Shown piece after piece: positions 7,859 through 57,806 of a stretch of DNA of 64,000 nucleotides (the first letter of the stretch is position 1; every line of letters begins with the position of its first letter). Below the pieces are notes generated by a model. It worked only from the letters and a program-made list of their open reading frames with translations, ran no database searches and was not told where the DNA came from. Origin of the DNA: Parelaphostrongylus tenuis (Eukaryota > Nematoda > Chromadorea > Rhabditida > Metastrongylidae); NCBI GenBank assembly GCA_019055375.1, contig JAHQIW010000616.1, forward strand, positions 310,001-374,000, given 5' to 3'. The translations under genes and the position numbers were made by a program.

Positions 7859-8227
7859 AATCCAGTCACAGAAAAATATTAGCAGCTAACAAAAATAAAT
7901 TTACTTTGCCTGTTTTGATAAATTACAGATGAATGTTTAACTACAAGTATTAACCTTTACATAAATCTCACTAACTTAAACTTCCCAGTCTTCATTATTT
8001 CCATTAGGTAACTATGTATTTCGGCGTAATCCGGACGGCTGTAGTAGTTTAATGTTCTAGAAGTACACGAGATGGTAAAATTTGAGCTCTGATTAACGTA
8101 CTCTTTCTTGATTTATTGTTCCGAACAAAATTAACATTTGTAGTACTTTTTGGGTATTTTGAAAATATTTTATGGCACTTCTACCTGTAACTACTCTTCC
8201 AACTATGGATCTATTAACATTGGATGG

Positions 8228-8510
8228 CTGTCAGCTTAACTGGGTTTATAAAACGAAATCGCCTACCCGACCAAACCTGCTGAAGGTTGGTGGCCGATAA
8301 CTAACTTAGAGATGTTGAAGAATGAGTGGTCGAGCAAATGTGCCTCGGTGTTGTAGTGGTAAAGCAAGTGTCTCTGGATGAGATGAAACGCGGGTTTGAT
8401 TCCCGCCTGAGGCCGTATTTTTGCTCACGACTCATCCTCTTAGGTATTATGAAAAAACATAACACTGGGAAACAAGGAGTAAAATTACTAGAAATTTCGA
8501 ATACTGAATG
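8228..8510 (+). repeat. tRNA-like repeat, module B (copy B1)
   Basis: The tRNA-like core is 8342-8413: acceptor strand GCCTCGG, box A-like TGTAGTGGTAAAGC, box B-like GGGTTTGATTCCC and return strand CTGAGGC. It is preceded by about 110 bp shared with the copies at 28.8 and 56.7-57.1 kb (TTTATAAAACG, then CCGACCAAACCTGCTG). It is followed by the shared GTATTTTTGCTCACGACTCA and a stretch ending GAAATTTCGAATACT. Recurrence with long common flanks argues against a functional tRNA gene. Confidence 0.75.
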
Positions 8511-19249: not shown

Positions 19250-20420
19250 ATAAGGAAAGCCACGTCTTCCCAAAACACATTTCCAACTATTATACAACAC
19301 TTGTTCACACTTGTTCCTTTTTTTGAGCTCATGTTTCTGTAGTCGTTCAATAGCTCGGAGAATGCCAATTTTGATAATGAGCTTGGTTTCTGGTGCTACC
19401 TTCAGACTACGCTTTACTAGTGAACAAAAGGTAACGTTTTGTAATCGCAGTCCATTTTTCCAACTTCACAGCGGAATTTTTGGCACTATAGTGAAAATGT
19501 GAATCAGATAACATAGGTATCATTTTCATAGATTATATCGTTTTCCTATAATCTTAGTTCTGGTTAAAACAACGCCCATTGGTCTCAAAAATTTCTACTT
19601 TCCATTGTGATATTTGCATCCTTAAGATAATAACGCAGTTCCAACTTTACTGCATATTAAAATCGACGATAATGTAAAACTGTAATTCGTAAACACTTTG
19701 TCTTCAATGTACAGTTTCTATGAGGAATTGAAAAAGGGTTTTAGCATATAGTCGAAGTAAGTCTTGATAGATTCCGCCTACAGTAATTTGAGAAGACTTC
19801 TGTGAGAACTAGACCGTTTTTTCACACTCAACATTCTTCTGTTCGTCATAGATAGCTGATTGTTGGAGGGACTTACACTAACATATTTTTAGTGGAAAAT
19901 GCTCAGTAATCTCCACTTTTCATCACGAACTATATATTGGACCTCGTTCGCTGGACAAAGTTTCTTCATAGGGCTATTGATAATCATTCGAAAGCTTCAT
20001 TCTCTGGCTACAGCTCGCCGTAACCGGTTTTTCAAAGCATTGTCTTATAATGCTGTAAAACCTGCAATAAAATTATGTTTCACCCACCACAAGTTTTTTT
20101 TTCTCATCTCGCCTATATTTCGCTGGTCAAAACTCCTTCCTTAGAGTGCTAATATTTTGCTGTGTTTGCTTTTTTGAGAAAACTGTGGGAAAAAGAACAC
20201 AAAATGCGTTTTACAACAAACACACCTATTATTGTTTTCTTCAGCATGAGCATATATTATGTTGTTAAAAGTTGCAGAGTGTTGAGACTTATTGTCATAA
20301 TACGCAATAATGTAAAGTTATGTGCAAAAACGTTTGCGTCAGCTGGGATAAAGTACAATCCAGTACAATCCCAGCTGACGCAAACGTTTTTGCACACTAC
20401 TCTACATAACTAGGTATATT
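19250..20420 (+). repeat. Long dispersed repeat D, copy 1
   Basis: Blocks shared in order with 45,735-46,385 are: tttccaactattatacaac; ATAATCATTCGAAAGC; aatgctgtaaaacctgcaataaaattatgtttcacc; TCGCTGGTCAAAACTCCTTCCTTAGAGTGCTA; and a terminal palindrome containing CAGCTGACGCAAACG. Both copies therefore carry a module C-type end. Neither has an intact ORF. It may be a longer or parental form of the module C elements. Confidence 0.55.
20324..20397. repeat. Module C palindrome, 27-bp perfect arms
   Basis: The left arm starts GTGCAAAAACGTTTGCGTCA and ends GCTGGGA. The right arm is its exact complement, separated by a spacer holding the direct repeat AGTACAATCC. The arms consist of the outer flank and the CTGACGC end of the module C tRNA-like sequence, so this is a module C inverted pair that has lost both tRNA bodies. 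Confidence 0.75.
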
Positions 20421-23964: not shown

Positions 23965-24860
23965 TCGTTGTTTCGAGAGTTTACTGAAAAAGAGCCAAGC
24001 ACATATAAATGTGACTTATTTATCTTTCAACATATGCCGTGGATAATCAGAATTTTTCCAAAACATGTACATCAGTATGTTAACAATGCAAATCAATAGC
24101 TCTTTTTTAGAAGATAATGCCCTTCATTATTCAGCACATCAATGGGAGTGACAAGCTGTAAAAATCGTATTTGTAGATTCGTTCCCTACTACTAAACTGT
24201 TCCACCCATTGCGTTGTTCAAGAAAAATGTACTGTGTTGACTGAAAACCTAATCATGAACTCTGAATATTATCTGTAGCTGGAGGTATCATTTTTATATA
24301 CTTCTATGATTTTAGGTTCTCAAGGGTTATGAAAAGAAAGGCGCATTGTACTTTATGAGCTTGAAATCACTGACCATCGCTTTTGTCGCAAGTGCAATGC
24401 TTAGAGGATAATTTAGCAATGGTTAGATATGGTCTACAGCACACTGTAATCTGAAGTTCGATGCTGTCTTCAAGGCTAGCATGTTTTTCGTCTCTCCGAT
24501 GCCGTCAAGATTGCAAGACTTGTCTAGTAGGATAATAACACCTCAATGCACATTATTAGTCCTACTAATCAATGTTTATGGTACGTCTTCAGTCACATAC
24601 GGCGGCACTATGAATAGAATTTCTCTTGTAAACCTTTGCTACACGCTTAGTTAACAGAAAAAATGAAGCTACTAATAAAGTCGAGTGGTGCATCGTTACA
24701 GGATTAGTCAGTGTCGAAAGTATTACGTTTTCACTCTCTATAATGATATAGTCAACAAAAGCTGACCAACTCGAAAGACCGACTTTCTTGAAACCTCGCC
24801 ATGTCAAGAACATAAAACTTTGAAAATGAGAAGAAATATTTAGAAGACTAATCTTCATTC
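23965..24860. other. Intergenic, nothing recognised
   Basis: AT-rich, no supported feature. Confidence 0.35.
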
Positions 24861-24937
24861 AGAGCTTCACGGGATTGGTATCTTTTTCCCAATCGATTGT
24901 TTTTCTTTCCGGTCGATGGGTTTTCTCGGTTGCTAGT

Positions 24938-24973
24938 GGCTGGAGTTTCGGCTAATACGCCTTCTTCAGAACC
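24938..24973 (-). ncRNA. Hammerhead-like motif 2, defective cleavage site
   Basis: Minus strand: GGTT, CTGAAGA, extra A, stem II GGC/GCC, GAAAC, then TCC where GTC is expected, then AGCC. Stem I pairs through one G-U. The changed cleavage triplet should prevent self-cleavage. Confidence 0.45.
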
Positions 24974-25066
24974 GTGCAATTTAGTCTAGACATTCCCTTT
25001 TTTTTTCTTTCCTTTTTTTCTCCCTAGATTTACTCCTTAGAAAAAGTTTCCTAGACTAGATTGCAC

Positions 25067-25109
25067 GGCTCTGAAGAAGGCGTATTTGGTATTTGCCAAA
25101 ACGTCAGCC
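25067..25109 (+). ncRNA. Hammerhead-like motif 3, defective core
   Basis: GGCT, CTGAAGA, extra A, stem II GGC/GCC with an enlarged loop, then AAAAC in place of GAAAC, GTC, AGCC. Loss of the conserved G (G12) should abolish activity. Stem I is intact. Confidence 0.45.
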
Positions 25110-25189
25110 ACTAGCAAGCGAGAAAACCTATCGACCGGAAAGAATAACAATTGGTTGGGAAAAAGATACCAACCACGTGAAGCTTTGAA

Positions 25190-27600
25190 TAAAGATTACT
25201 TTTCTAAACTTTTCTTCTCATTTTCAAAGAAGCAGACCAATAATCAACGTTGCGCGCGAGCTACTTCTGGAAAGACGATGACAGAAAAGAAACTGTTTCA
25301 CTCTGCTAAGACTTTCAAGATTCAATAAACACTTTCCTACGAACTCGTTCTGCCTTGCGTGAAAAAAACTAATGAATGCAACGCATTAGTAACTCGTTGA
25401 AATAAGAAATTATTATATCACGAGCGCTGTTGGAAGTACATTGGTGTGAAGAATGCAGAGTGGTTCTTCAAGAATATGAATGTCCACAAAAGTTGCAGAG
25501 ACCGTAATGCGTCAATGATTGAATCACTTCTGTCACAGTTGACGGTGTTTTTCAACGTTTGATCTTTGTGCATGCAATCATAATTAGTAAGTAGTTTATT
25601 CTTTTTGATAAGTTGTTGGCGAAGACTACGACGATTTGGAATCTCCATGTCATTCCTGTTTGAATTTTCACAGTGATATTGCTTTTGTCCTCTGAAAGTT
25701 CTTACTAAAGATTAAACATTTTCCGATGTTGTTCCTATGAGCCTATTTACGAACAACCCTTTTATGATGGTCGGTCCATGCTACTGCAATCTCTTCTTCC
25801 TCTCTATAGTAGAATGAAGTGCCTAAATAATGAATTTAGTCCTTATCTCTTCATAATTTGTATAAAATTTTTAGGCTCAAGTCTTTTTTACACTCTCTTC
25901 CTGCTTGATTCACTCTTATTTTCATTTCTGGAAAACTTGCGCGTGTTTAGATTTGGTTTGCAACGCGAAAATTTATTTCCCCATAAAGAAACAAATTTCT
26001 CATTTAGGCTGAAGGATTTATTAGGTCGTAATATATCTTTGGCCAATTTTAGTTTTCACTGTGATTTTGTTTTAGATCTACTAAATGAATTGGCTGATTC
26101 TGATCTGAGCTCATGTACTGGATTATAACAAGTGAAAGAGTTGTGAAAACGCATGTGTCGATATAGTTAGAGGAGCGCAACAAAATAAAACTTGGTCCGA
26201 ATCCCTTTTTGAGTTGACCAATTCTTCCGTCTTTTCGGGTTTGCTAAATTAATGCCAGATTTCTTCTGAAGAATAACAACACCAATTTGATTCCTTAATT
26301 GTATGAAAGTTTCTGTGTAAGCCAGAAATGCAAAGAGTAACTATTATGGTACTGCGAATAGAATTGAACTAATTGCATAGATAAGGAGTCGGTTAATGAA
26401 CTCTATACGATGAATTCCATACTTTATTCGTCAGCATATTCGTTATCTGTAATTTTCTAGTGTTACTGAGCTACAGAACTTACAACAGAAGGCTGTTTAA
26501 CCTGCACTAGGCTCTTACACCTAATTGGTTGGTGCGACTATAGAGAGGCACCGCGTCCAATTGTCAAGAATGATCATCGCCTGCCAATGTAGTTTTACAC
26601 TATTATCTCACTTCAAGCAAAAGACGATAAGAAAAGAGTTTAGATTAGATATATTACACTGGTTATTTTATGCTTTTCTGGTAAGTCTTACCTTAGAGAG
26701 CCAAGCGTGGTTAACGTGTCTACTGCGGGCTAACGTCTCATTGAACTGTCTGTTGTAAGTCAAAGCAGACTCATAAAGGAACTCCATATGAAAGTAAAGT
26801 AAATTCATAGGAAGTGTAACGAACATCACGCGAGCTGATCAATCATTCATGGATTGGCCACTCGTTCGACTACATTTGTAGCATTTGAAGGCTACGGAAT
26901 GCATATTTTCCCTGTACTATCATTTTTGGGTGTGCTGATGTATCAAAGTCATTGGGCGTATCCTCTTGGTGTCTAGTTCCAGTTTGTTCGGTATGCAAGG
27001 TTTATTTGGCCTAGCTACGATATACAGCCAAGGACTGTGTGTATACTGAGATGTATCACCAAGCAGTGAGTTACGCAAACCCATAGCGCTAAACAGAAAG
27101 AATCTCATGTGGCCACAACACTACTGCACAGGAATTTCGCGTTCTACCAGTACATCAAATGATTATTTTCATCTTTCTAGATAGAACTATTGAGATATGT
27201 CGACCCTGGAGACATGAATAGCTTGACTAACGAATTTTTCTTTGAATCATAGACCATCTTAATTTTGTAAAACACCCGCAACCAACAAGCACCCTAATAT
27301 GAGTTACTACCTACAACAGCACACCAGCTCGTTAGCCTTAATACGAAATAGTGAAATTGATGCGATATGTTCAAATTCTAAACTGTCCCCTCTGTCAAGC
27401 ATTTCACTGTTTACTATTTCTTTCCTCAATAAACATGAGGCTGTTTATAGAACATTTTATCATTTTCAACAGCAGACATTTCGACTGTTTCAATTTCTTC
27501 AAAGTTTGGCGAAATTAAATTTGCAGACAACCTACTCAGCCTAACTAGTTCATAACAAGTCTAAACGAGACCTATTATAAAATGCTAAAAAATAATTCAA
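25190..27600. other. Intergenic, nothing recognised
   Basis: Short AT-rich ORFs only, including 116 codons at 25,778-26,128 made almost wholly of Phe, Leu and Ser. No convincing exon. Confidence 0.35.
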
Positions 27601-28702: not shown

Positions 28703-28756
28703 GTGAGTTAATTTATGCTCTCCTCCCAAGTTTTTGATAAAGAAAAAAAGTGATCC

Positions 28757-29040
28757 TCGAAATTACAGTATTTTCACTGCTTTTTTCGCAGTGTTATTAT
28801 GTTCCTATATAACTAAGAGAATTGAGTGGTGAACAAAAACACGGCCTCAGCTGGGACTCGAACCCACGTTTCATCCTATCCGGGGACGCGTGCTCTACCA
28901 CTACACCACTGAGGCACATTTGCCCAGCCACTCATTCTTCTACATCTCAATGTTAGCTATCAGCCACCACCTTTAGCAGGTTTGGTCGGGTATGCGATTT
29001 CGCTTTATAAACCCAGTTGAGCTGATAGCTATTCTAATTA
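28757..29040 (-). repeat. tRNA-like repeat, module B (copy B2)
   Basis: The tRNA-like core is on the minus strand at 28,844-28,915: GCCTCAG...CTGAGGC, box A GTGTAGTGGTAGAGC, box B GGGTTCGAGTCCC. It is the best preserved core of the family and folds into a cloverleaf-like form; the anticodon-loop position reads GGA, with C where tRNAs have U33. Flanks: GAATTGAGTGGTGAACAAAA on one side, TTTGCCCAGCCACTCATTC on the other, then CGACCAAACCTGCTAAAGG (minus) and the hairpin CACTGC/GCAGTG at 28,777-28,795. Confidence 0.8.
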
Positions 29041-29045
29041 CTAAT

Positions 29046-29133
29046 ACTTCGAAATTACAGTATTTTCACTGCTTTTTTCGCAGTGTTATTATGTTCTTAT
29101 ATAACTAAGAGAATTGAGTGGTGAACAAAAACA
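29046..29133 (-). repeat. Partial second module B unit, direct duplicate of the left flank of B2
   Basis: This repeats 28,757-28,841 almost perfectly (CGAAATTACAGTATTTTCAC through GTGGTGAACAAAAAC), then breaks off just before the tRNA-like core would start. Confidence 0.75.
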
Positions 29134-29481
29134 TGAACAGTGTTATTATGTTCTTTTTAGTTATATAAAAAAATGATCACCAGAAAAAAACGAGAAAAAA
29201 TGGTGAAACCTAGTTTTAATAGAGTGATAGTCCATATTTCTTGCTTTGTCAACTGCATAGGCTGCCGGTCCATTGACTTAATACTCACTCGACTGGCCTC
29301 AGTAGTGCCCATTTGCTGTGGTTGAATGACTTAGTAATTGACAGAGTTTGCTCAGTAAGGATTCATAAAAAATGAGATACTCTTTGTCTGATGTTCTTGC
29401 AAAAGTTCAATCATATGGTGATCATCGCTATAACAATCTCATAGTGATATTTAGAACAATTAAATATTTTCTCAATTTCCT

Positions 29482-31594: not shown

Positions 31595-31860
31595 TGCAAT
31601 ATCTGTCAGCGTGACGGGGTTCAATATCAAAATCGACTACCTCGGCAAAACCGTTGACGGTTGGCTGCTGACAGATAAATGTGTTATAGCTTAAAAAGAG
31701 TGGTGGCAAACGCGCGTCGATAGTGCAACGGGTTAAAGCACGCGCTCCTGGAAAGTGTGAAATACGGGTTCGAATTCCGACCTGACGTGAACGTTTTGCA
31801 CATCATCATTGAGTATATCTATAACATCACGCCACCATTAAAAGCAATTAAATCAAAGGG
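31595..31860 (+). repeat. tRNA-like repeat, module C (copy C3)
   Basis: Core 31,714-31,787: GCGTCGA, box A TAGTGCAACGGGTTAAAGC, box B CGGGTTCGAATTCC, end CTGACGT. It is preceded by a body shared with 51.42-51.54 kb (GTGACGGGGTTCAAT, CCGTTGACGGTTGGC, CTGACAGATAAATG). It is followed by the module C flank GTTTTGCACATCA and the end ATAACATCACGCCACCATTA. Confidence 0.75.
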
Positions 31861-32720
31861 ATTTTATCGTATCAATGCATATTATGATATGAAATTAATT
31901 GAAGTCTGATTTCGAATTTCAATATTTAGTGGTAATTATTGATCTGCATTGATGAGCATTTTTTGCATAACTCTGCACTTATGTTAATCAACTCGACAAT
32001 ATAAAAAGTCGTCCTAAATCTCACTGTTTACTTCCTTCATATCTATGTCTATTTACGAAACCACAAGGACCATGCTTTCTATTTCTGTAATTAAAGATTT
32101 TATCAACGCAGTAATTTCAAAAAAAAAAAGCAACGCAGTCTTAGCTTGAATATTCTGTTCTATTTCTGATATTCTCACGAATCTGTTGAACGCTTACTAA
32201 TACCCAAAGTCAACATAACATTTACAGCCTCTGCAACTATGACTCTTGCAAATATCATACGCAAAAGGCAATTGAATCATTTCAACTTGTGGTCAACTTT
32301 ACCTCTTTACAAAGTATTTTTTTTTCGTTTTTTTCCTTTCTTCTCTTCTTCCTTGCCAAATAGGATTAGGATGCTCTTTCAGAACTCAACAAAGTAGTGT
32401 TTTGTGTCGTCCTATTCTTGTCCTTGTATTGGTGATGGGTTATTTCGTAAATTAATTCGATATAGTGCATTTCTTAGTATCCCTTTTTTTAATAAAAAGG
32501 GACTGATCAGATCTTCTTCCACTTACAAACCTTTTCTTTGAGTTTCAGGTTCCAAACTTTCCTGCTTTCCTATATTTACGCTAAACGATCTGTAGAAGAT
32601 TCTTGAGTTGGCAGGAAATTCTCGACACGTTTTCGTTTTTGTTAATTACTTTTCATGCATCTAACTTACTGCTCTTACTATCGTTTATAGCAGCTTCTTT
32701 CGGTTATTTTGATATATAAA
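31861..32720. other. Intergenic, nothing recognised
   Basis: AT-rich, no supported feature. Confidence 0.35.
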
Positions 32721-32722
32721 GC

Positions 32723-32895
32723 TCCTACACTTGTTTCAAGATGGAATTGTCCCGAGAGGAAAAACGATTGTTGATGTTACACAGTATCATTGAATGCCGA
32801 AGCAACACTTGAATCCCAACGATAACCGTATAACATCAACAATCGTTTTTTCTCTCAGAAGAATTCCATCTCAAAACAAATGTACAAGTGTTATG
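32723..32895. repeat. Inverted repeat, about 56-bp arms
   Basis: The left arm (ACACTTGT, AGATGGAATT, AAAAACGATTGTTGATGTTA) is repeated in reverse complement at 32,829-32,895. The spacer is about 50 bp. No tRNA-like core and no obvious target duplication. Confidence 0.65.
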
Positions 32896-33206
32896 TATTA
32901 AACTAACCTCAAGAAGCTGCTCTAAACGATAGCAAAAACAAAAACCTAAATGCATGAAAAATATCCAGTAAAAACGAACAAGTCCGGAAAATCTCTTGCC
33001 AACCCAGCCACAATTCATGAATGACATTGCAGCTAAAAAAAGAAAAGTTGGAAAAACAGAATAGATTCTCGATAATGTTAAAAAGAGGCGTTTCACGCAT
33101 TTTGAGCGGTGAATAGAAGGTTATACGTAGACGAAAAGGGAACATGCGCATTTTTTTCTCAATGGAGCGTTAGATTTAGGAGATAGGCTTCTTACTCGTA
33201 TATCAG

Positions 33207-36456: not shown

Positions 36457-36659
36457 GAAGGAACAATTAAGTTTATACCAATTTCGTGCTCTCGCTCATG
36501 CACCAGTGAATATTTACACTGATGTTTAAATGTGCTCCAACATTTTTATATAAAATTATAGATGAAAATGACAATAAGAACTATTTGATATTCTTTTGCA
36601 CTATCTTCTAGTCGACTGTTTTGAGATGACGGTGAAAAACTAGATATAGTCTAATATAA

Positions 36660-37140
36660 TGTTTTAAGCCTTTCAAGAGGCCTGGTATGGCATCTCTAGC
36701 GGGTATGTGTACGTTTCGGCGTTTTTGAACGTCTCATCAATACCACATGCCCTACGGCTCACCTCTGCTACTATTATCAGTTGGCGTCGAAAACGTATCA
36801 CTCAGATGAAGTGAAAGAATCACTTGGTGTTGTCTTCTAGACCCTATTATTATTCTATTAGACCATATTGAATTCTTAGGCGAGGTCTCATAATAGTCGG
36901 TAGTAAGATATTGACATCAGTTTGCTTAACAGCCGTAAGATATTGATACTCAGTCACTCTGGAAATCAGCATGAAGTGATTCTTTTACTTCGTTTAGAGT
37001 GATACATTTTCGGCATCAATTGCTAATAGTGGTGGAGGTGAGCCGTAGGGCATGTGGTACTGATGAGGCAAGCGAGAAGGTCAAAGCATACGTATACCAC
37101 TAGAGACGCCATTCCAGACATCCTAAAGGGCTCAAAATAT
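36660..37140. mobile_element. Foldback element G, about 170-bp inverted arms
   Basis: The left arm 36,664-36,835 and right arm 36,968-37,137 are reverse complements with scattered changes. The best block is TACCACATGCCCTACGGCTC. Others are GTATCACTC and AAAGAATCACTT. The spacer holds a small repeat (GTAAGATATTGA twice). No ORF. Confidence 0.75.
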
Positions 37141-37800
37141 TCTCTCAGACTCTTTTTCATTTGTTGCTTAATTCATTCTCAGTGACTCCTTGCGAAGCTG
37201 GTTTTTCCTTCATCATTTATTCTATTCTTTTTCTTTTCTTACCTTTTCTTTTCTTTTCTTTTCCTTTTTGTTTTTATTGTACATGTAGACGACGGCAGCT
37301 ATCAGATCACTTCACGGCCGTTATCAGTCAAATGGGCGATGTTCATATGTCAGCGAAATAAATCAAAGTAATTGATGATTATATGACTGAATAACGTGTT
37401 TATGCATTAGTAGCTCTGATTTCAACAACTTGAAAAGAAAAAAGGTGTAAAGTTTGAAATTGATGAAATTCCATCTTTTTATTAGTTTCTATAAACTTCG
37501 AGCAAAAGATGAAATGAATCGTTGTGGGCGTGTCGCTGTTACCATCTCCTCAAGAATCGTCCCATCATCCAAACTATTAATCACACTGCTAGGATAATTC
37601 CTTTATGTGCACTGTATATCGATTTATTGATTAGTGCCGATGGTCACAAACAAACAGTGATTGACGTCTCTGAATTCGTTCTTTGAACCAATAGTATTTT
37701 TGTACGATAAGTCAACCGTTGAAATGACAGCTTATCGTTCTTATCAGGCGATCGATGGATTATAGTTATTTCATTTATTTTCTTCATATAACCAATGTTC
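37141..37800. other. Intergenic; one weak terminal-exon candidate
   Basis: After ATGTACATGTAG at 37,289 a short block richer in GC reads RRQLSDHFTAVISQMGDVHM and then SAK and a stop. Support is too weak for a separate call. The rest is AT-rich. Confidence 0.25.
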
Positions 37801-45734: not shown

Positions 45735-46385
45735 TATGAACAAGAAAGCCACATCCTCTCGAAAAAGATATACTTCCAACTGTTATACACAATTATCGCT
45801 ACTTTTCAATCATATGGAACAAATGAATGTTCGACCTCATTCTCCGTGCAAGAATTTTTCATAGAAATGTTAGTAATCATTCGAAAACAATCTGTGGCTA
45901 GAACCGTACTTGGTCGATTCTCTAAAACACGCTTTCATCACGCTGTAAAACCCAGAATAAATTATATTTCACCCGGCCACGCGCCTTTATATCTTATCTC
46001 TCTAATTTCTCGCTGGAGAAAACTCTTTCCTTAGAGTGCTAGTACTCTTTAGGTAGCACAATTCTCGAAAAACTCAAAAATGTTATTGTTTTTGGGAAAA
46101 GCTCTTTTTATAGCGCTGCAGGAGAAGACAAAATTTGTCAGAATTCTTTTTATTTTGACTGCCACTTCCAGTGGTATGGTGTTATAGTGTACCCAATAAT
46201 GTGGAGTGCTGTGCAAGAACGTTTGTGTCAGCCGGAATTTGAACGAAGATCTCACTCTTTTCGGGAGCGATTGCTAACCGTTGCACCACCGACGCTCGTT
46301 TTGCACAGCACTCTGGAAAGAGTGAGATCTTGGTTCAATTCCCGGCTGACGCAAACGTTTTTGCACAGCACTCCACATTATTGGA
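45735..46385 (+). repeat. Long dispersed repeat D, copy 2, with module C palindrome
   Basis: Matches 19,250-20,420 in order (ACTTCCAACTGTTATACAC; AGTAATCATTCGAAAACA; CTGTAAAACCCAGAATAAAT; TTTCTCGCTGGAGAAAACTC; CTTTCCTTAGAGTGCTAGTA). It ends in a palindrome (46,196-46,384) whose arms begin AATAATGTGGAGTGCTGTGC. The left arm carries an almost complete module C tRNA-like core (minus, 46,225-46,295); the right arm carries a 3' half only (plus, 46,302-46,352). Confidence 0.65.
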
Positions 46386-46569
46386 TAAAATTTGTTTTAC
46401 ACCTCGGCGGAAAGAAACCTTGCCTTTGACTTTAGTAATCATTCGATAGCGTAAGTATCGATAATTCCAATGCAATGATTATTTTCCGGAAAGACCGTTT
46501 CATGTAGTGTAGCATGGAATATAAGATCGCGTTTCACATATTCGACGGCTCGTTTACCGCCTAAACCAC

Positions 46570-47206: not shown

Positions 47207-47824
47207 TTATTGCCACGAAAGAGTATCACCTGTATCACCTGTATCACCTGTCGTCCCGTTGATCATCGAGTGACTCGAGCGGATACCAGCAACTCTTCCA
47301 TTTTTCCCTATCGCGTGCAAGAGTAGCCCAGTGGGTCCTCCTCGCTCTAGGAATCGCTGAGCATCATATCTTTCTTCAATCGCTTTCGTGAAGAGATCGG
47401 ACCAACGGGTCGGTGGTCTTCGTGTAGACCGTTTGATGTCCCGAGGAATCCAATCGGTAACGGCTCTCGTCCACCGGTTGTCGTTGAAGCGCATCACGTG
47501 TCCGGCCCACCTTATTTTCGATATCCTGGCGTGTAGAACGGCGTCTCTGATTTTCGATCGTTGACGTAGGTGGGAACTTCGGATCCTTTCTCTCATTTGC
47601 GAGATGCGGGATACTCCTAGCATAGACCTTTCGACTGCGCGTTCGATAACGGCAAGTGATCTTTCATCCTGCTTACGTAGCGACCAGGTTTCTGCTGCAT
47701 ACGTTAGGGCAGGGATAATTGTCGAGTCGTAAAGGTGGGCACGGAGTCGGATGTTCTTTGTCCTCTTCACTACATCTTCGATGCTCTTAAACGTTCCCCA
47801 AGCCGCTCGTTCCCTCCTGCTCAA
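47207..47824 (-). pseudogene. RTE C-terminal domain, copy 2, frameshifted near its end
   Basis: Begins SRRERAAWGTFKSIEDVVKR and continues through STIIPALTYAAETWSLRKQD, RISKIRWAGHVMRFNDNRWT and RWSDLFTKAIEERYDAQR. It then leaves the conserved frame (copy 1 continues IPRARRTHWATLARDREKW) and ends by translating the tail repeat as TGDTGDTGD. A single-base change near 47,350 explains the shift. Confidence 0.8.
47223..47255 (-). repeat. RTE 3' tail, three ACAGGTGAT units
   Basis: Three perfect 9-bp units on the minus strand, directly after GATCAACGGGACG, the same end as copy 1, which has two units. Confidence 0.85.
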
Positions 47825-47877
47825 CTCTGGAGCTAGGTCTTGTTGATCTCATCATGTTGATCATATTCATTCACGAC

Positions 47878-48594
47878 CTAGATAAACGTAACTGGAGCAT
47901 TCGGAAATTGTCGTTCCGTTGAGCGTGAATGGGGAATAGAAACCCATCCGTTCCTCATGAACATTGTTTTCGTTAGATTCAGTTGAAGACCGATCTTTCC
48001 ACAGGCGTTATGGAAATCAGTCAACATTCGTTCCGCTTGGCTGATGTTTGGTGTTATGAGAACGATATCGTCAGCAAAGCGAAGATGGTTTGATTGTCGA
48101 CCGTCAATTTTCACTCCCATTTCGTCCCATTCTAATGTTCGCATGACGTTTTGTAGGGTGGTAGTGAATAGTTTTGGCGATATTGTATCGCCTTGTCGAA
48201 CCCCTCTTCTTACGTCAATGGTGATATTGTTGAAGAATGGAGCTATTCTGGTCGTGAAATCTTTATAAAGCTCACGAAGGATCATTATGTACCGAGTAGG
48301 AACGCCCTGGTTATCCAGAGCATCTATAACCGCTTCTGTTTCCACTGAATCAAAGGCTTTTTTCAGATCGATAAAAGTGAGACAGAGTGGTTGTTTGTAC
48401 TCTCGCGAAACTTCAATGAGTCTTGTGATCGTGTGGATGTGGTCTATGGTACTAAATCCTTTTCTGAACCCTGCTTGTTCGCATGGCTGTCCTTCGTCCA
48501 GTGTTCTGTCAATCCTGTTCAGGATGGCTCGAGTAAAGAGTTTATAGACAACGGACAGCAAGCAGATTGGGCGATAATTGCCTATGTCGTGAAG
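47878..48594 (-). pseudogene. RTE reverse transcriptase core, copy 2
   Basis: Open for about 240 codons on the element side of the insertion: IGNYRPICLLSVVYKLFTRA, QAGFRKGFSTIDHIHTITRL, CLTFIDLKKAFDSVETEAVI, VRRGVRQGDTISPKLFTTTL, HLRFADDIVLITPNISQAER and CGKIGLQLNLTKTMFMRNGW. The two catalytic aspartate blocks (FIDL and FADD) are intact. The frame closes at NAPVTFI, where full elements continue to the C-terminal domain, so copy 2 has a break near 47,878. The ORF that runs past 48,594 into the insertion is a fusion artefact. Confidence 0.85.
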
Positions 48595-49031
48595 TGGTCT
48601 GTCAATGAGGGCTGACTTATAGAGCCCGATACACGTGTTTCGATCTTGCGATCTCGTCAGTCGGGCAGTTACCCTTTCTCGTCTTTTGCTAATCTCGGGT
48701 GCTCCAGTCCCCACAATAAGAGTTAGCGACGACGTACGTTTTACACTCTATGTTCAGTGAAGAACTCACCAAACACAGAGTTTTGTACACTCGAATGCTC
48801 GTGGCTAGTATATTTAATATAACATATCTTTCATTTCGAGTGTTTTCTTAAGACCACAGCTCAAATCTCGACTGACGAGATCGCAAGATCGAAACACGTG
48901 TATCGGGCTCTATAAGTCAGCCCTCATTGACAGACCACTGACATGCGTGGCTCAAATAATGATTATCAGGCATATTGAGATTTGAGCTGTGGTCTTAAGA
49001 AAACACTCGAAATGAAAGATATGTCGTAAAG
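48584..49031. mobile_element. Foldback element F, copy 2, inserted in the RTE
   Basis: The insertion (48,595-49,020) splits a sequence that is continuous in copy 1 (CCTATGTCGTGAAGGTCTCC). The flanks are ATGTCGTGAAG and ATGTCGTAAAG, an 11-bp target duplication with one difference. The left end TGGTCTGTCAATGAGGGCTG is repeated in reverse complement at 48,871-48,944. The block ending in CACTCGAAATGAAAGAT is the inverse of 48,826-48,870. So it carries two interleaved inverted repeats and no ORF. Confidence 0.85.
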
Positions 49032-49601
49032 GTCTCCCTTTTTGAACAACAATACGGTCTTGCTGGTTTTCCATTGGATAGGGACCTTGCATTCTGACAG
49101 GTAGCGAGTGAAGAGCCGAGCCAGGGTGTTGATGAGAACTGGCGGCAGGTTCTTCAGGTGTTCTGGTCTAATCCTGTCTGGACCGGGTGTTGTTCTGTTT
49201 TTCACCGACGATATAGCATGTCGGATTTCGGAAGGAAGGACCGGTGGAACGACATATTCGTCCTCTTTCAATTTATATGACGGTAAGAGAACATGGCTAG
49301 CGAAGAGATCCGAGTAGTATTGGTGGATGATTTTCTCCATAGCCCTTCTGAAAGCTGTAAGTGTCCCGTCAGAGTATCGGAGTGCAATCATATTGGTCTT
49401 ATAGTTGGCGAAGCCTCGCTGGGCTTTGCGAATGCTCTTCCCAGCTTCAGCAGCTTCTTTCATAACTGCTGCTCTTCTCTCTCTGAGGTCTTCTTTTATC
49501 GCTTCTCTGCGTCGTTTCGCAAGTTCGGACGTAAGGTTTCGGTTGCCTGCAGCTCGTGCGATTCCACGTTGACGTATCAGCTCGAGTGTCTGCGGAGACA
49601 A
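49021..49601 (-). pseudogene. RTE linker and first RT blocks, copy 2
   Basis: Reads TLELIRQRGIARAAGNRNLT, SELAKRRREAIKEDLRERRA, KSIRKAQRGFANYKTNMIAL, MEKIIHQYYSDLFASHVLLP, TTPGPDRIRPEHLKNLPPVL and IQWKTSKTVLLFKKGDLYDI, where foldback element F interrupts it. No stop before the insertion. Confidence 0.85.
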
Positions 49602-49921
49602 GCGTCTCTTCGTGACTTTAGGACTCTCTGCTTTTTTAGCGCTAACGTGATGATATTCAACGAGTCGATCGTATTCTTCGTCGATGTTGTCGACAACGGT
49701 ATCTCCCCAAGAGCCGACTAATGATTTGAATACATCCCAGTTTATGGTAGTTCTGGGACTTCGTTGTTTGAATTTAGCGGCTTTCTCTCCTCTCCTCGAA
49801 AATCGGAACGATGCGCGAAGGAGGCGATGGTCTGATCCTGTGTAGAACTTGGGTATTCTATAAATGCAGTTTTTTTTAGTAAAAGTGCGTTAAATTTTTC
49901 TAGAATACCCTACTTTTCCAA

Positions 49922-51214: not shown

Positions 51215-51640
51215 TTTTTATTCAACCGATTTGAGCGGTGGTATGATATTCCAGATATATCCTTTGATGTGGAGTGATGTGCAAAATTTTCGCGTCAGGC
51301 GGACTCGAACCCATACCTCATTCTATCTGGGAGCGCGTGCTCTAACCCGTTGCACTACTGACGCCCCTTTTTCCACACTACTTATTCTACGCAACAACGC
51401 TAGAAGCGGCACAATAAAAAGAATTTCTTCTGGTCATCAGTACCCAATATCTGCCACCGTGACTGGGTTCAATGTCGATACCGACTACCAGGGCCAGGCC
51501 GTTGACGGCTGGCGGCTGTCAGATAGATGCGTTGCAGCGTCGAAAGTGCAATGGGTCAGAGCACGCGCTCCAGGACAGAGTGAGATGTGGGTTCGAGTCC
51601 CCTTGACGCGGAAGTTTTGCACATCACTCTAAATCAAAAA
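51215..51640. repeat. Module C inverted pair (copies C5 and C6)
   Basis: The minus-oriented core at 51,292-51,364 and plus-oriented core at 51,537-51,609 are both nearly complete (GCGTC...GACGC; boxes GCAACGGGTTAGAGC and GGGTTCGAGTCC). Both have the flank GTGATGTGCAAAA facing outward. The interior carries the module C body (TCTGCCACCGTGACTGGGTT, GGCCGTTGACGGCTGGCGGC, CTGTCAGATAGATG). The left outer end is GAGCGGTGGTATGATATTCC. Confidence 0.75.
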
Positions 51641-51647
51641 GTGCCCA

Positions 51648-51744: not shown

Positions 51745-51965
51745 CTTTCATTTAACCGCTTTAAACGGTGTTATGACGTTACAATTGATGGTTGATGCGT
51801 TGTAGCGTACAGTGATTTGCAAAACAAGCGTCGATAATAAAATTGGTTTATCACGCGTTCCCGGAAAGGGTAAAATGCAGGTTTGGGTCCCGTCTGACGG
51901 CGAAATTTTGCTTATCACTCAACATTATGGAGTACATCCACACAATATATTAACCAAGCTGCAGG
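51745..51965 (+). repeat. tRNA-like repeat, module C (copy C7)
   Basis: Core 51,828-51,899 (GCGTCGATAATAAAATTGG, CAGGTTTGGGTCCC, GTCTGACGG). Left end AACCGCTTTAAACGGTGTTA, right flank GAAATTTTGCTTATCACTCA. More diverged than C5 and C6. Confidence 0.65.
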
Positions 51966-54910: not shown

Positions 54911-57806
54911 CTCATCGCACATTAATACGGCGACTTTACAAACGCTACGGGGGCCTGGTCAGGTGAGCATTAAATTGTATTCTACCGTAATGTCGTCATG
55001 GTTTTTGCAGCAAATATTCTTTTGAACTAATTTTGAATAGAATAGTGAAAATTAGAACAATTACTGTCACTGACATGAAGATTGCTGGTCAGAACTGCTT
55101 CTTATCGTTTCAGGCCGCTCATGATCCCCTCCAGTTCGTTTCAACGAGCGCTGTGTCATTGGCAGAAAATGCTCGAAAGTTGATCAGTATCACGGAACAG
55201 CAGAAAAGAGAACGGGCGAAATTAGCACGTAATGGAGTGAGTCAAACATTCCGCAAAATTCGAAAACCATCTCTACAAACGTCTTCATCCAAAAACTAGT
55301 GTGCTAGAAGCGAACTGGTTAAAGAAGGCATGCAATGCACTCATAGTTACTGGTTCGATCTCACCCCCTTCAAATAGACTTATCATTAGGTAGAAATCAG
55401 TTAGCAGAAAGTGTCGATACACATGACTTTTCTCCTATTCAAAGAAAACATAGGAACTAAAGTGATCAATCTTAGCATTGATAGGAAAAGAACATCAGAA
55501 GGTCATTTAAAATTTGTATGTGAGGAAGGAACAAATGACCAGGACTATAGCACACTGTGGGCATGTCAACTTGTCCCACAATTTCTCAAACCTTGACACT
55601 TTTGTTGATTCAATTGTTAGTCGTTGATTCGATTCAATAAGTCAACAATATAGTCGTCATCATAGTCAATGATATTCAGCCAATTGCTGGATAAAAACTG
55701 AATGTCTTACCCCTGGAAGAACAAAGGTAGCGATCAAAGAAGTTGGTGACGTTCCTTGTGGGGTGGTTATAGTTTTTAAATTTTTCGCCTGCAGAAGAGA
55801 TGAAAATTTATGGAGCATAATCAGGGCTAACGGTGGACCTGTTAGTGTGGTCCAGGCCGATTTTGTCAGAATGTGGCGAGTCGACTTTGCAATGTGAGGT
55901 GATTGGTCAATGCATGAGATGTTCATCGAGACATCACTTTGCGAAAGACCCTTTCATTTAAATGGCGAGAGATGGTTCTACGGCCTTTTCGAAGTGTTTG
56001 CTCAAGCTCTAGAACATTTTCCACCATACCACAGTCTTTTGGCAATGAATCATTTTGAAATACTAAAGAAAGTGGCTAAAACAATAGTGCGAGGGAAGTT
56101 TTGGAACAGTCCCTTGCAACACAAGACAGCACTGAAATACCTCTTGTTTTTCAAGGTCATTGTATATCTATCACATTTAGACATAGTGGCCGACTGTCAT
56201 CTAAGCTGTCCGCTCTATATCTGAGCTATTTTAGCCACCATTTGACGACAATGAATCATGGCAAGAGGATTTGGATACATGGCGGCGGAAGCGAAAAACA
56301 AAAGTAGGCAGACAGGAGTGCGGCGACGACAGCAGTCTGTCCAGGGACTATAGCAAAGAATACCACAGTTTACCAAATTACGGAAGGAGTCATAAGGTTA
56401 GTCAATGATTGACAAACATTTGCCATAATTTTTATTATTTTTTCGCATTATTTTCCAACCGAAACAGTCGGCTTGATGGCTGATGTTTTTTGATTCCAAC
56501 AGCAATGGAATAGATTGTTCTATACAACGCGAGACGCCGATTTCGTCGGATTGATAATTTGAAAGGGTAGTACTCTCGTTCAGAATTGTGAAGGACTGAA
56601 CTTTATCGGTCGGGTAACAAACTCTAGTGCCTCACTGTACTCGACGCAAACTATAATTGTTTCTCGCTGACGACTTGATGAAAGATATTCCCAAGAGAAC
56701 TGAGTGATGGGCAAAAACACGGCCTCAGGCGGGAATCGGACCCGCTTATCCTATCCGGGAACGCGTGCTCTACCATTACACCACCGAGGCACATTTGCCG
56801 ACCACTCATTCTTCACCATCTCTATTTTAGCTATCAGCCACCAACCTTTAACAGGTTTGGTCGGATATGGGATTGCGCTTTATAAATCCAGTTGAGCGTA
56901 CGCCACTGTTAGATCTAATACTTTGAAATTCTAGTATATTTACTGCTTTTTTTGCAGTGTTATGATGTTACAATTCATCGCATATCCGACAAACCTGTTA
57001 AAGGTTGATAGCTGATAGTTAACATAGAGGTGATGAAGAATGAGTGATCAGGAAAGTGTGCCTCGGTGGTGTAGTAGTAGAGCAGGCGTGTCCGGATGGG
57101 TTGGAACGCGGGTTCGATTTCTGCCTGAGGCCGTGTTTTTGCCCACTACTCAGTTCTCATGGGGATATATGTAAACTCATAGCCTGCGAAAAAAGCGGTA
57201 AAATTATTAGAATTTTGGAGTATTTGATGAAAGATGTCGAAGCATTGCAGTGTCCGTTGTTCGAACGTAGCAAATAAATACTGAGTGCAAACATTATAAC
57301 CGTGTTTTGTCCCCCATAAGTTCTTTTTTGAACTAAACCGGCAAGCTGACACGACTTGAAAATAATTGTCAATCACGGTCACGTGTTCTTGAGTTTGCGA
57401 AAATTTCAAGCGGTGTATAATTACCATAATTCTTTTTGCTTAATTGATTTCAGCGGTAATGTGATGTTACAAATATCTGTAATAATTATGAGTAATGTGC
57501 AAAACTTTGAACATCCGACGCAATCTCCGTCCGATGTTCAGAGGTTTGCATAATTCCAAATTATTTACCAATTATACTGAACCACCTTTCATTCAACCCC
57601 GGAGTGCATAATCGATATGTTTTTTTTGCAGCTTCCACGAGGTTGACAGTAGTGTTTATTCTGCTGATATTTCAACATCTTCGTCTTATCGGAACCAAAG
57701 ACTCGAGTCGATTGTCCAAAGTCGTTCGTCCTCGCCTTCGTCTTCATTCGAGTGGGCTCCATTGAAGAGAATGACTCGAAAGACTACGATGACCACCACC
57801 ACATGA
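54911..57806 (+). CDS. Last exons of an unidentified host gene
   Basis: Three exon blocks on one strand. Exon 54,911-54,962 follows TTTTTCTTTCAG, reads SSHINTATLQTLRGPGQ and ends in phase 0 at GTGAGC. Exon 55,114-55,236 follows CTTATCGTTTCAG, joins in phase 0 and reads AAHDPLQFVSTSAVSLAENA, RKLISITEQQKRERAKLARN and G, ending at GTGAGT; its Glu/Arg/Lys-rich second half could be helical. Exon 57,632-57,806 follows TTTTTTTTGCAG. It reads FHEVDSSVYSADISTSSSYR, NQRLESIVQSRSSSPSSSFE, WAPLKRMTRKTTMTTTT and a TGA: a Ser/Thr-rich, basic tail. Its frame needs phase 2 from the previous exon, so at least one exon between 55,237 and 57,631 is missing, or the last exon belongs elsewhere. The first two exons are the firmer. 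I do not recognise the protein. Confidence 0.55.
55240..56685. other. Probable intron of the 54.9-57.8 kb gene
   Basis: Holds ORFs of 86 codons (minus, 55,666-55,926) and 104 codons (plus, 55,910-56,224; FIETSLCERPFHLNGERWFY) without splice support. A weak tRNA-like head is at 55,320-55,370. Confidence 0.3.
56690..57170. repeat. Module B inverted pair (copies B3 and B4), about 200-bp arms
   Basis: The minus-oriented tRNA-like core at 56,722-56,790 and plus-oriented core at 57,060-57,131 (GCCTCGG...CTGAGGC) lie in arms that are reverse complements end to end. Arm blocks: GAGAACTGAGT, GGGCAAAAACACGGCCTCAG, CACTCATTCTTCA, CTATCAGCCACCAACCTTTA and AACAGGTTTGGTCGG. The centre holds the TTTATAA block of the left unit and a copy of the CTGC/GCAG hairpin. 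No ORF. Confidence 0.85.
57491..57552. repeat. Module C palindrome without tRNA body
   Basis: GTGCAAAACTTTGAACATC at the left and its near complement GATGTTCAGAGGTTTGCAT at the right, spacer CGACGCAATCTCCGTC. It is preceded by the module C end CAGCGGTAATGTGATGTTAC. Confidence 0.6.

Follow-up and report, generated by a model that had tools for sequence, protein, structure and literature searches.

Inverted tRNA-bearing repeats in Parelaphostrongylus tenuis, probable retrozyme-like elements copied by Penelope-like machinery

Introduction

Penelope-like elements (PLEs) and metazoan retrozymes are the closest described systems to a repeat that carries tRNA-like sequences in inverted arms and is found at positions 56687-57223 of a 64,000 nt stretch of DNA (the window; contig JAHQIW010000616.1) from the nematode Parelaphostrongylus tenuis. 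The window belongs to a 481.5-Mb assembly of 5,105 contigs, and the genome-wide copy searches cover the same assembly. A COX1 stretch shows 95% identity to an Angiostrongylus cluster, in keeping with a strongylid and probably metastrongyloid nematode. The repeat is very probably a non-autonomous, retrozyme-like retroelement that is copied by PLE machinery.

Purified PLE protein cuts and extends both strands of its target, and reverse transcription starts at two adjacent internal sites; the stretch between these two sites is the "tail" (Frangieh et al., PMC11167929). Penelope copies of Adineta rotifers are described with inverted pseudo-long terminal repeats (pLTRs), a 31-bp tail that is optionally present on one of them and target site duplications (TSDs) of 8-10 bp. 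The Adineta authors infer that pLTRs in cis are enough to move an unrelated gene (PMC3846280).

Metazoan retrozymes are presented as tandem non-coding units of ~300 bp with a hammerhead ribozyme, and PLEs are their suspected helpers. The helper of these small non-coding retrozyme-like repeats is left open in the same account, where PLEs are proposed from common features and co-occurrence (passages of PMC7229834). Another group of small elements, the Helenus terminal-repeat retrotransposons in miniature (TRIMs), is reported to carry tRNA-derived sequence in its long terminal repeats (LTRs) (Kojima 2024, passages of PMC10886601). For P. tenuis itself, the assembly paper gives a figure of 9,623 tRNA genes (passages of PMC10940269).

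The repeat unit and the window insert

The building block of the repeat, as seen in copies L001-L060, is a circularly permuted unit of ~293 bp with the modules E, T and S. E is 50 bp in length, and T, the tRNA-like part, reads on the unit's minus strand. The sense order is S, cloverleaf, T run, a site termed T1, E, a site termed E1 and the S of the next unit. The window insert is composed of two arms of this unit, as follows.

56675-56686, no strand: left TSD, TTGATGAAAGAT, an exact 12-bp direct repeat of 57224-57235
56687-56977, plus: T1 arm, one unit from position ~51 around the circle to 55, with T1 as its outer end and the tRNA-like part in antisense (circular-unit segmentation)
56713-56717, minus: run of five T (AAAAA on the plus strand) adjoining the 3' end of the left tRNA-like part, similar to an RNA polymerase III (Pol III) terminator (sequence)
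56721-56790, minus: left-arm tRNA-like sequence (Rfam RF00005, 34.5 bits)
56913-56975, plus: central E (tail) module, unmatched in the other arm (module map)
56978-57223, minus: E1 arm, running from unit ~242 via T and E down to E1, with the tRNA-like part in sense (circular-unit segmentation)
57060-57132, plus: right-arm tRNA-like sequence (alignment with other copies)
57136-57140, plus: run of five T adjoining the 3' end of the right tRNA-like part (sequence)
57170-57223, minus: outer E module, the "tail" at one end only of the pair (module map, end scoring, PLE counterpart)
57224-57235, no strand: right TSD, TTGATGAAAGAT, an exact 12-bp repeat of 56675-56686

The insert is thus 537 bp long, with the exact 12-bp TSD on both sides. 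The segment 56685-57168 aligns with its own reverse complement at 75.5% identity over 503 aligned columns (E 6e-88), and the predicted fold of the insert RNA, -322.7 kcal/mol against -147.8 (standard deviation 7.4) for 100 shuffles, is 24 standard deviations lower. A first-pass annotation of the window had described an inverted pair of tRNA-like arms whose transcript would form a long hairpin, and both descriptions are borne out. The arms are not complementary throughout, as it had claimed; ~100 bp at the centre and the rightmost ~54 bp (57170-57223) have no counterpart in the opposite arm. Nor is GAGAACTGAGT the terminus of both sides, as the insert ends at 56687 and 57223; the GAGAACTGAGT ends are not terminal inverted repeats.

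The left tRNA-like sequence is recognized by the Rfam tRNA model, whereas the right one has no Rfam call at the gathering score and was recognized through other copies; ARAGORN called no tRNA in either arm of the window insert.

Genomic copies and their ends

Copies are present as head-to-tail multimers, as 5'-truncated arms and as outward-facing inverted pairs. The 28-bp stretch from the T run to T1 has 7,222 genome-wide matches at up to 3 mismatches, compared with 0 for the reversed control. Among 100 listed exact matches to this stretch, neighbours within 600 bp were outward-facing in 11 cases, direct in 2 and inward-facing in 0 (hand count). The window contains two more copies.

28757-29180, plus: second copy, head-to-tail, E1 end on the left and a short inverted T1 end on the right (85-bp direct repeat, 98.8% identical)
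8224-8501, minus: third copy, a single unit in a single orientation with its E1 side to the right, ends left unclassified (circular-unit segmentation)

Ends were scored by circular-unit segmentation of 55 records, which comprise 53 loci and the window copies w8 and w28. Excluded were L020, L025 and L026 (same loci, other strand), L031 and L036 (identical with w28), L047 (L046) and L050 (L042). The apparent allelic copies L034/L057 and L054/L056 were counted twice in the end and TSD counts and once in the count of inner ends; w8 was omitted from the TSD count, L121-L133 are outside the end and TSD counts and L128-L133 are outside the inner-end count.

Two arms are present in 43 of the 55 records. 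In 39 of these 43, one outer end is T1 and the other is E1, compared with 21.5 expected from independent ends (binomial P 1.4e-8), in a sample where T1/T1 pairs without E would be under-sampled as the copy-finding query contains E. When allelic copies are counted once, with L057 replacing the mis-parsed L034, the proportion is 38/41 (by hand). T1 (unit ~51) and E1 (unit ~290) lie 50-55 nt apart in the unit, and both outer ends of the two-armed copies are sense-strand 3' ends. Of the 55 records, 11 were scored as single-armed (8 with E1, 3 with T1), and w8 is unclassified.

An exact word of 9 bp or longer is common to both flanks of 31 of the 54 copies, whereas 0.9 is expected from swapped flanks. 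The commonest TSD length is 12 bp (13 copies). Four of the 11 single-armed copies also have a 12-bp TSD (L033, L039, L042 and L044); one of these, L042, is a one-ended insertion of 3.5 units. Element boundaries and target duplications, which the first-pass annotation had proposed to define from genomic copies, are available from the copies sampled. That annotation had also named single units paired by chance as a contrary outcome. Single-armed records do occur, but the pairing in the window is not by chance: one TSD encloses the entire pair, and the pair is a single insertion rather than two head-to-head insertions.

Two early ideas were abandoned. A Helitron or Helentron, suggested by the asymmetric ends, was dropped on finding TSDs of ~12 bp, and the constant total length of the old copies L001-L030 was attributed to selection by the 481-bp query.

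Resident Penelope-like elements

PLEs with long open frames are present in the same genome. One of them, L079, encodes a reverse transcriptase (RT) and a GIY-YIG domain. The best protein match is at 74%, the closest named relatives are in strongylid nematodes, and the A. costaricensis match shows 78% identity over 52%. The 3' region of L079 displays, by eye, a CTGAAGA..GAAAC core, which we take to be hammerhead-like; Rfam did not call the hammerhead-like core in the PLE L084.

In a genome search for GIY-YIG sequences, 150 of 1,723 candidates were scored, all above the cut-off. These include 22 neighbour pairs within 5 kb, of which 20 are outward-facing, 2 are in the same direction and 0 are inward-facing (hand count). 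Outer ends were retrieved for each of the 20 outward pairs; the left end of C411 was not found, and C4986, read by eye, belongs to another family. Where both ends of a pair could be read, exactly one of them is tailed, with an extension of ~40-49 nt (18/18), and the C4986 pair of the second PLE family, with one tail, appears to follow the same rule. TSDs of 12-13 bp are found in 14 of 18 pairs, whereas none of 306 swapped pairs reaches 12 bp. In the resident PLEs, the tail at one end is the mark of two internal RT start sites that has been published for PLEs. One such pair is in the window.

24770-25229, no strand: inverted pair of 3' ends from the second PLE family, of which only the left end is tailed (82-86% match to the PLE ends L113/L114)

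Its ends and flanks were read by eye, and the flanks, AGC(T/A)GACCAA, are TSD-like.

The tRNA-bearing repeat follows the PLE-type rule of two 3' ends in 39/43 copies, measured against the PLE yardstick of 18/18, and the TSD length is common to both, 12 bp being the commonest in each. As with the PLEs described from Anolis (Poseidon, PMC11167929) and Adineta (PMC3846280), the repeat displays head-to-head inverted ends, an optional tail of 30-50 nt at one end, tandem units, 5' truncation and TSDs of ~8-13 bp. Unlike PLEs, it has a tRNA-like cloverleaf, no ribozyme was found in the copy read, and it has no RT/GIY-YIG coding region: no such open reading frame is present in the 293-nt unit, and the longest continuous insert segment read (1,041 bp, L042) consists entirely of such units. 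Its tail sequence also differs from the tails of the two PLE families read.

The similarity to metazoan non-LTR retrozymes, as these are described in passages of Cervera and de la Pena (2020, PMC7229834), lies in head-to-tail non-coding monomers of ~300 bp, TSDs and co-resident PLEs, the suspected helpers. The repeat differs in that the unit read has no Rfam ribozyme match and displays a cloverleaf instead, and in that inverted two-ended copies are common. The Rfam search was of one copy (28740-29140) at E up to 10 and gave 5 matches, none of them a ribozyme, with a library that also misses the hammerhead-like core of the PLE; a ribozyme within the unit was dropped as a candidate on this result.

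Proposed mechanism

We infer an RNA intermediate, a PLE helper and priming from two strands. The template would be a sense RNA of one or more 293-nt units, either multimeric or circular. Both strands of the cut target would prime reverse transcription on the element RNA, one starting at T1 and the other at E1, and the two cDNAs, of variable length, would be joined head to head to give an outward inverted pair inside a TSD of ~12 bp. Priming from one strand only would give a single 5'-truncated arm or a multimer. In the least certain step, RNase Z would cut the tRNA-like part at its 3' end and so take the role that the hammerhead has in retrozymes. It is possible, if rather doubtful, that a tRNA cloverleaf on a long stem replaces the ribozyme in this way, with host enzymes (RNase Z, perhaps together with RNase P and tRNA ligase) cutting and joining the transcript into the units that the PLE copies.

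The tRNA-like part

A covariation test was made on 34 chosen copies, with 500 shuffles, for the cloverleaf together with a flanking 7-bp stem. Standard pairs occupy 86.7% of cells, compared with 33-43% when the structure is slid, a control biased towards any structure that was derived from one of the sequences. Double-change cells number 44 against 18.6 in the shuffles, and 0 of 500 shuffles reach this value. For example, one acceptor pair is C-G in 16 copies and G-C in 13, and one anticodon pair is C-G in 18 and U-A in 9. For the cloverleaf alone, the five measures are reached by 0, 70, 0, 48 and 0 of 500 shuffles. These results support, without proving, a cloverleaf conserved as RNA.

A plausible competing reading, although with less than an even chance, is that the repeat is mobilized by PLEs but that its tRNA-like part is a captured internal Pol III promoter without a structural role. 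It is consistent with the retention of the box-like sequences and the T run, and with Helenus and Ajax TRIMs, which are described as preserving promoter boxes and not tRNA folds (passages of PMC10886601). The differences between two related tRNA-bearing families with a common layout, A and B, could derive from two parent tRNA genes and be simply inherited. This alternative keeps its standing because two covariation measures, those that count pairs or pair types, are unexceptional. Against it, double-change cells and the covariation score of the cloverleaf are above all 500 shuffles, and the T, anticodon and acceptor stems all contribute. The stem that flanks the cloverleaf is outside the tRNA and shows the same tendency, though mainly through one pair: alone, its five measures are reached by 2, 319, 6, 130 and 1 of 500 shuffles, the 6 being for double-change cells and the 1 for the covariation score. 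In addition, the T run would halt Pol III ahead of T1 and E1, which is a difficulty for the promoter and, as noted below, for the preferred reading as well.

The positions of inner ends bear on cutting by RNase Z. Sense-5' or inner ends are at unit 85-86 in 9 of 53 cases (32 young copies), 1-2 bases past the discriminator base at 87; the binomial value is 3.7e-9 for positions 84-86 and ~1e-6 allowing for all positions. The copy query spans unit 1-85, so that copies truncated below 85 are excluded, which should not favour 85 over later positions. Among further loci found with another query, ends at 85-86 are present in 3 of 6 (L130, L131 and L132). RNase Z cutting predicts ends at 85-86, and copy L125 has a 3' end at unit 88. 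The pile-up at the tRNA 3' end hints at RNase Z; a strong RT stop at a tRNA base is an alternative cause.

Separately, two copies with different flanks, L042 and L058, both start at unit 150 (tRNA position 10). A modified tRNA base 9 could stop the reverse transcriptase and give such starts; with two cases only, this is left as a remark.

In the window copy at 28843-28915 the anticodon loop reads CCGGATA, with anticodon GGA. A role in translation appears unlikely for the tRNA-like part of this copy because position 33 is C.

A second tRNA-bearing family (A) of the same layout is found in the window at 51257-51644, 46189-46387, 31680-31813, 20310-20407 and 51794-51935. It displays a cloverleaf on a long stem, a T-rich run and an E-like tail, with some of the copies arranged as inverted pairs or close to palindromic. 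At 20310-20407, the tRNA-like sequence is only partly retained.

Mode of transposition

Several observations weigh against copying by PLE machinery through RNA with two fixed start sites. Four of the 43 two-armed copies are not T1/E1: L012, L016 and L049 are E1/E1 and L034 is T1/T1, and the requirement for E in the copy query could have led to short T1/T1 pairs being missed. L034 is inserted into another tRNA-like repeat, and its T1/T1 call was judged to be a parsing artefact from the tRNA-like target alongside. No exact TSD of at least 9 bp was found in 23 of 54 copies, nor in 7 of the 11 "single-armed" ones; because of the latter, some of these may be two-armed with an overlooked arm, as in L030, where a T1 arm is 82 bp off. 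A Pol III transcript would be expected to stop at the T run, ahead of both T1 and E1. In the covariation test, pairs with a double change (89/500 shuffles) and further pair types (26/500), the two measures least inflated by relatedness, are unexceptional.

The link to a particular PLE also meets negative results. No PLE family was found with an E tail or a tRNA-like part, and the autonomous relative with shared ends for which the first-pass annotation had suggested looking is not among the families examined. A search of 20 PLE loci did not find the unit and gave one weak 44-bp match (L071, E 0.11). When the tails of two PLE families were compared with those of families A and B, 117, 228, 270 and 1206 of 2000 shuffles were as good, whereas family A matches B and PLE1 matches PLE2 with 0 of 2000. 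Homology of the PLE tails to that of the repeat was rejected for these two families, as the similarity is not significant.

A tRNA-derived short interspersed element (SINE) moved by a long interspersed element (LINE), for example a resident RTE-type element, with inverted copies arising through twin priming, is a much less probable origin. The tRNA-like A and B boxes would fit it, as would variable 5' truncation and varying TSD lengths, and LINE RT is abundant, with 32,193 first-look candidates genome-wide. The repeat resembles tRNA-derived SINEs in its tRNA-like part with box-like sequences, its thousands of copies and its TSDs. Unlike them, it has no 3' tail that could be seen, the ends printed showing no oligo-A or simple-repeat tail at T1 or E1; it has S upstream within the unit; and a T run follows the tRNA-like part, a run of at least 4 T being found within the 119-nt stretch around this part in 83 of 90 copies. 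It also has two fixed 3' sites and PLE-type pairs: the second priming site is T1 and not random, and both the two-end rule and the TSD length are the same in the resident PLEs. Among the best 135 of 32,193 LINE RT candidates, no neighbour was found within 5 kb (hand count), in a limited control with a mid-frame query and scores for the most similar 135 only. The view of the first-pass annotation that the locus is mobile, contains a tRNA-like part and differs from the usual tailed SINE is upheld.

RTE-like LINE fragments are themselves found in the window at 1-2678 and 47207-49889; they are 95-98% identical to each other in part and carry endonuclease and RT open reading frames.

A foldback element or miniature inverted-repeat transposable element with a captured tRNA-like sequence, favoured by the first-pass annotation and suggested by the long inverted arms and target duplications of ~12 bp, is extremely improbable on the evidence of ends, junctions and TSDs, as the termini T1 and E1 are distinct sites 50-55 nt apart and not mutual inverted repeats, inner junctions are variable, one-ended copies and multimers have 12-bp TSDs (L033, L039, L042, L044) and the ends follow the PLE rule.

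Helenus TRIMs, in the passages of PMC10886601 that describe them, are similar to the repeat as non-autonomous retroelements with tRNA-derived sequence. They differ as LTR elements with short TSDs (5 bp in the plant family), and the RNA folds predicted for them do not support a tRNA function. Among the literature matches listed, titles and abstract openings contain no such element as the P. tenuis repeat, within a search whose scope lay outside subscription journals and Repbase.

Other repeats in the window

Two other palindromic repeats of ~400-500 bp are present at 32604-33006 and 36648-37151. These are 75% and 69% self-complementary, respectively, and neither ARAGORN nor Rfam called a tRNA in them. 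The segment 43963-44418 is a long CA/GT microsatellite that can be read as a Cys-Val open frame.

Implications

Repeats of this type may largely account for the 9,623 tRNA genes reported for P. tenuis, which would then represent over-annotation. The insertion footprint of the repeat, consisting of two start sites, one tail and a 12-bp TSD, itself points to PLEs, and with thousands of copies beside PLEs that have long open frames, the question of the helper becomes testable. A second route to the construction of such parasites is suggested, with a tRNA-like sequence in place of the hammerhead. If the RNA-processing reading is true, PLEs would have SINE-like parasites of their own, linked to them via tRNA processing and not, as with LINEs, via a common tail.

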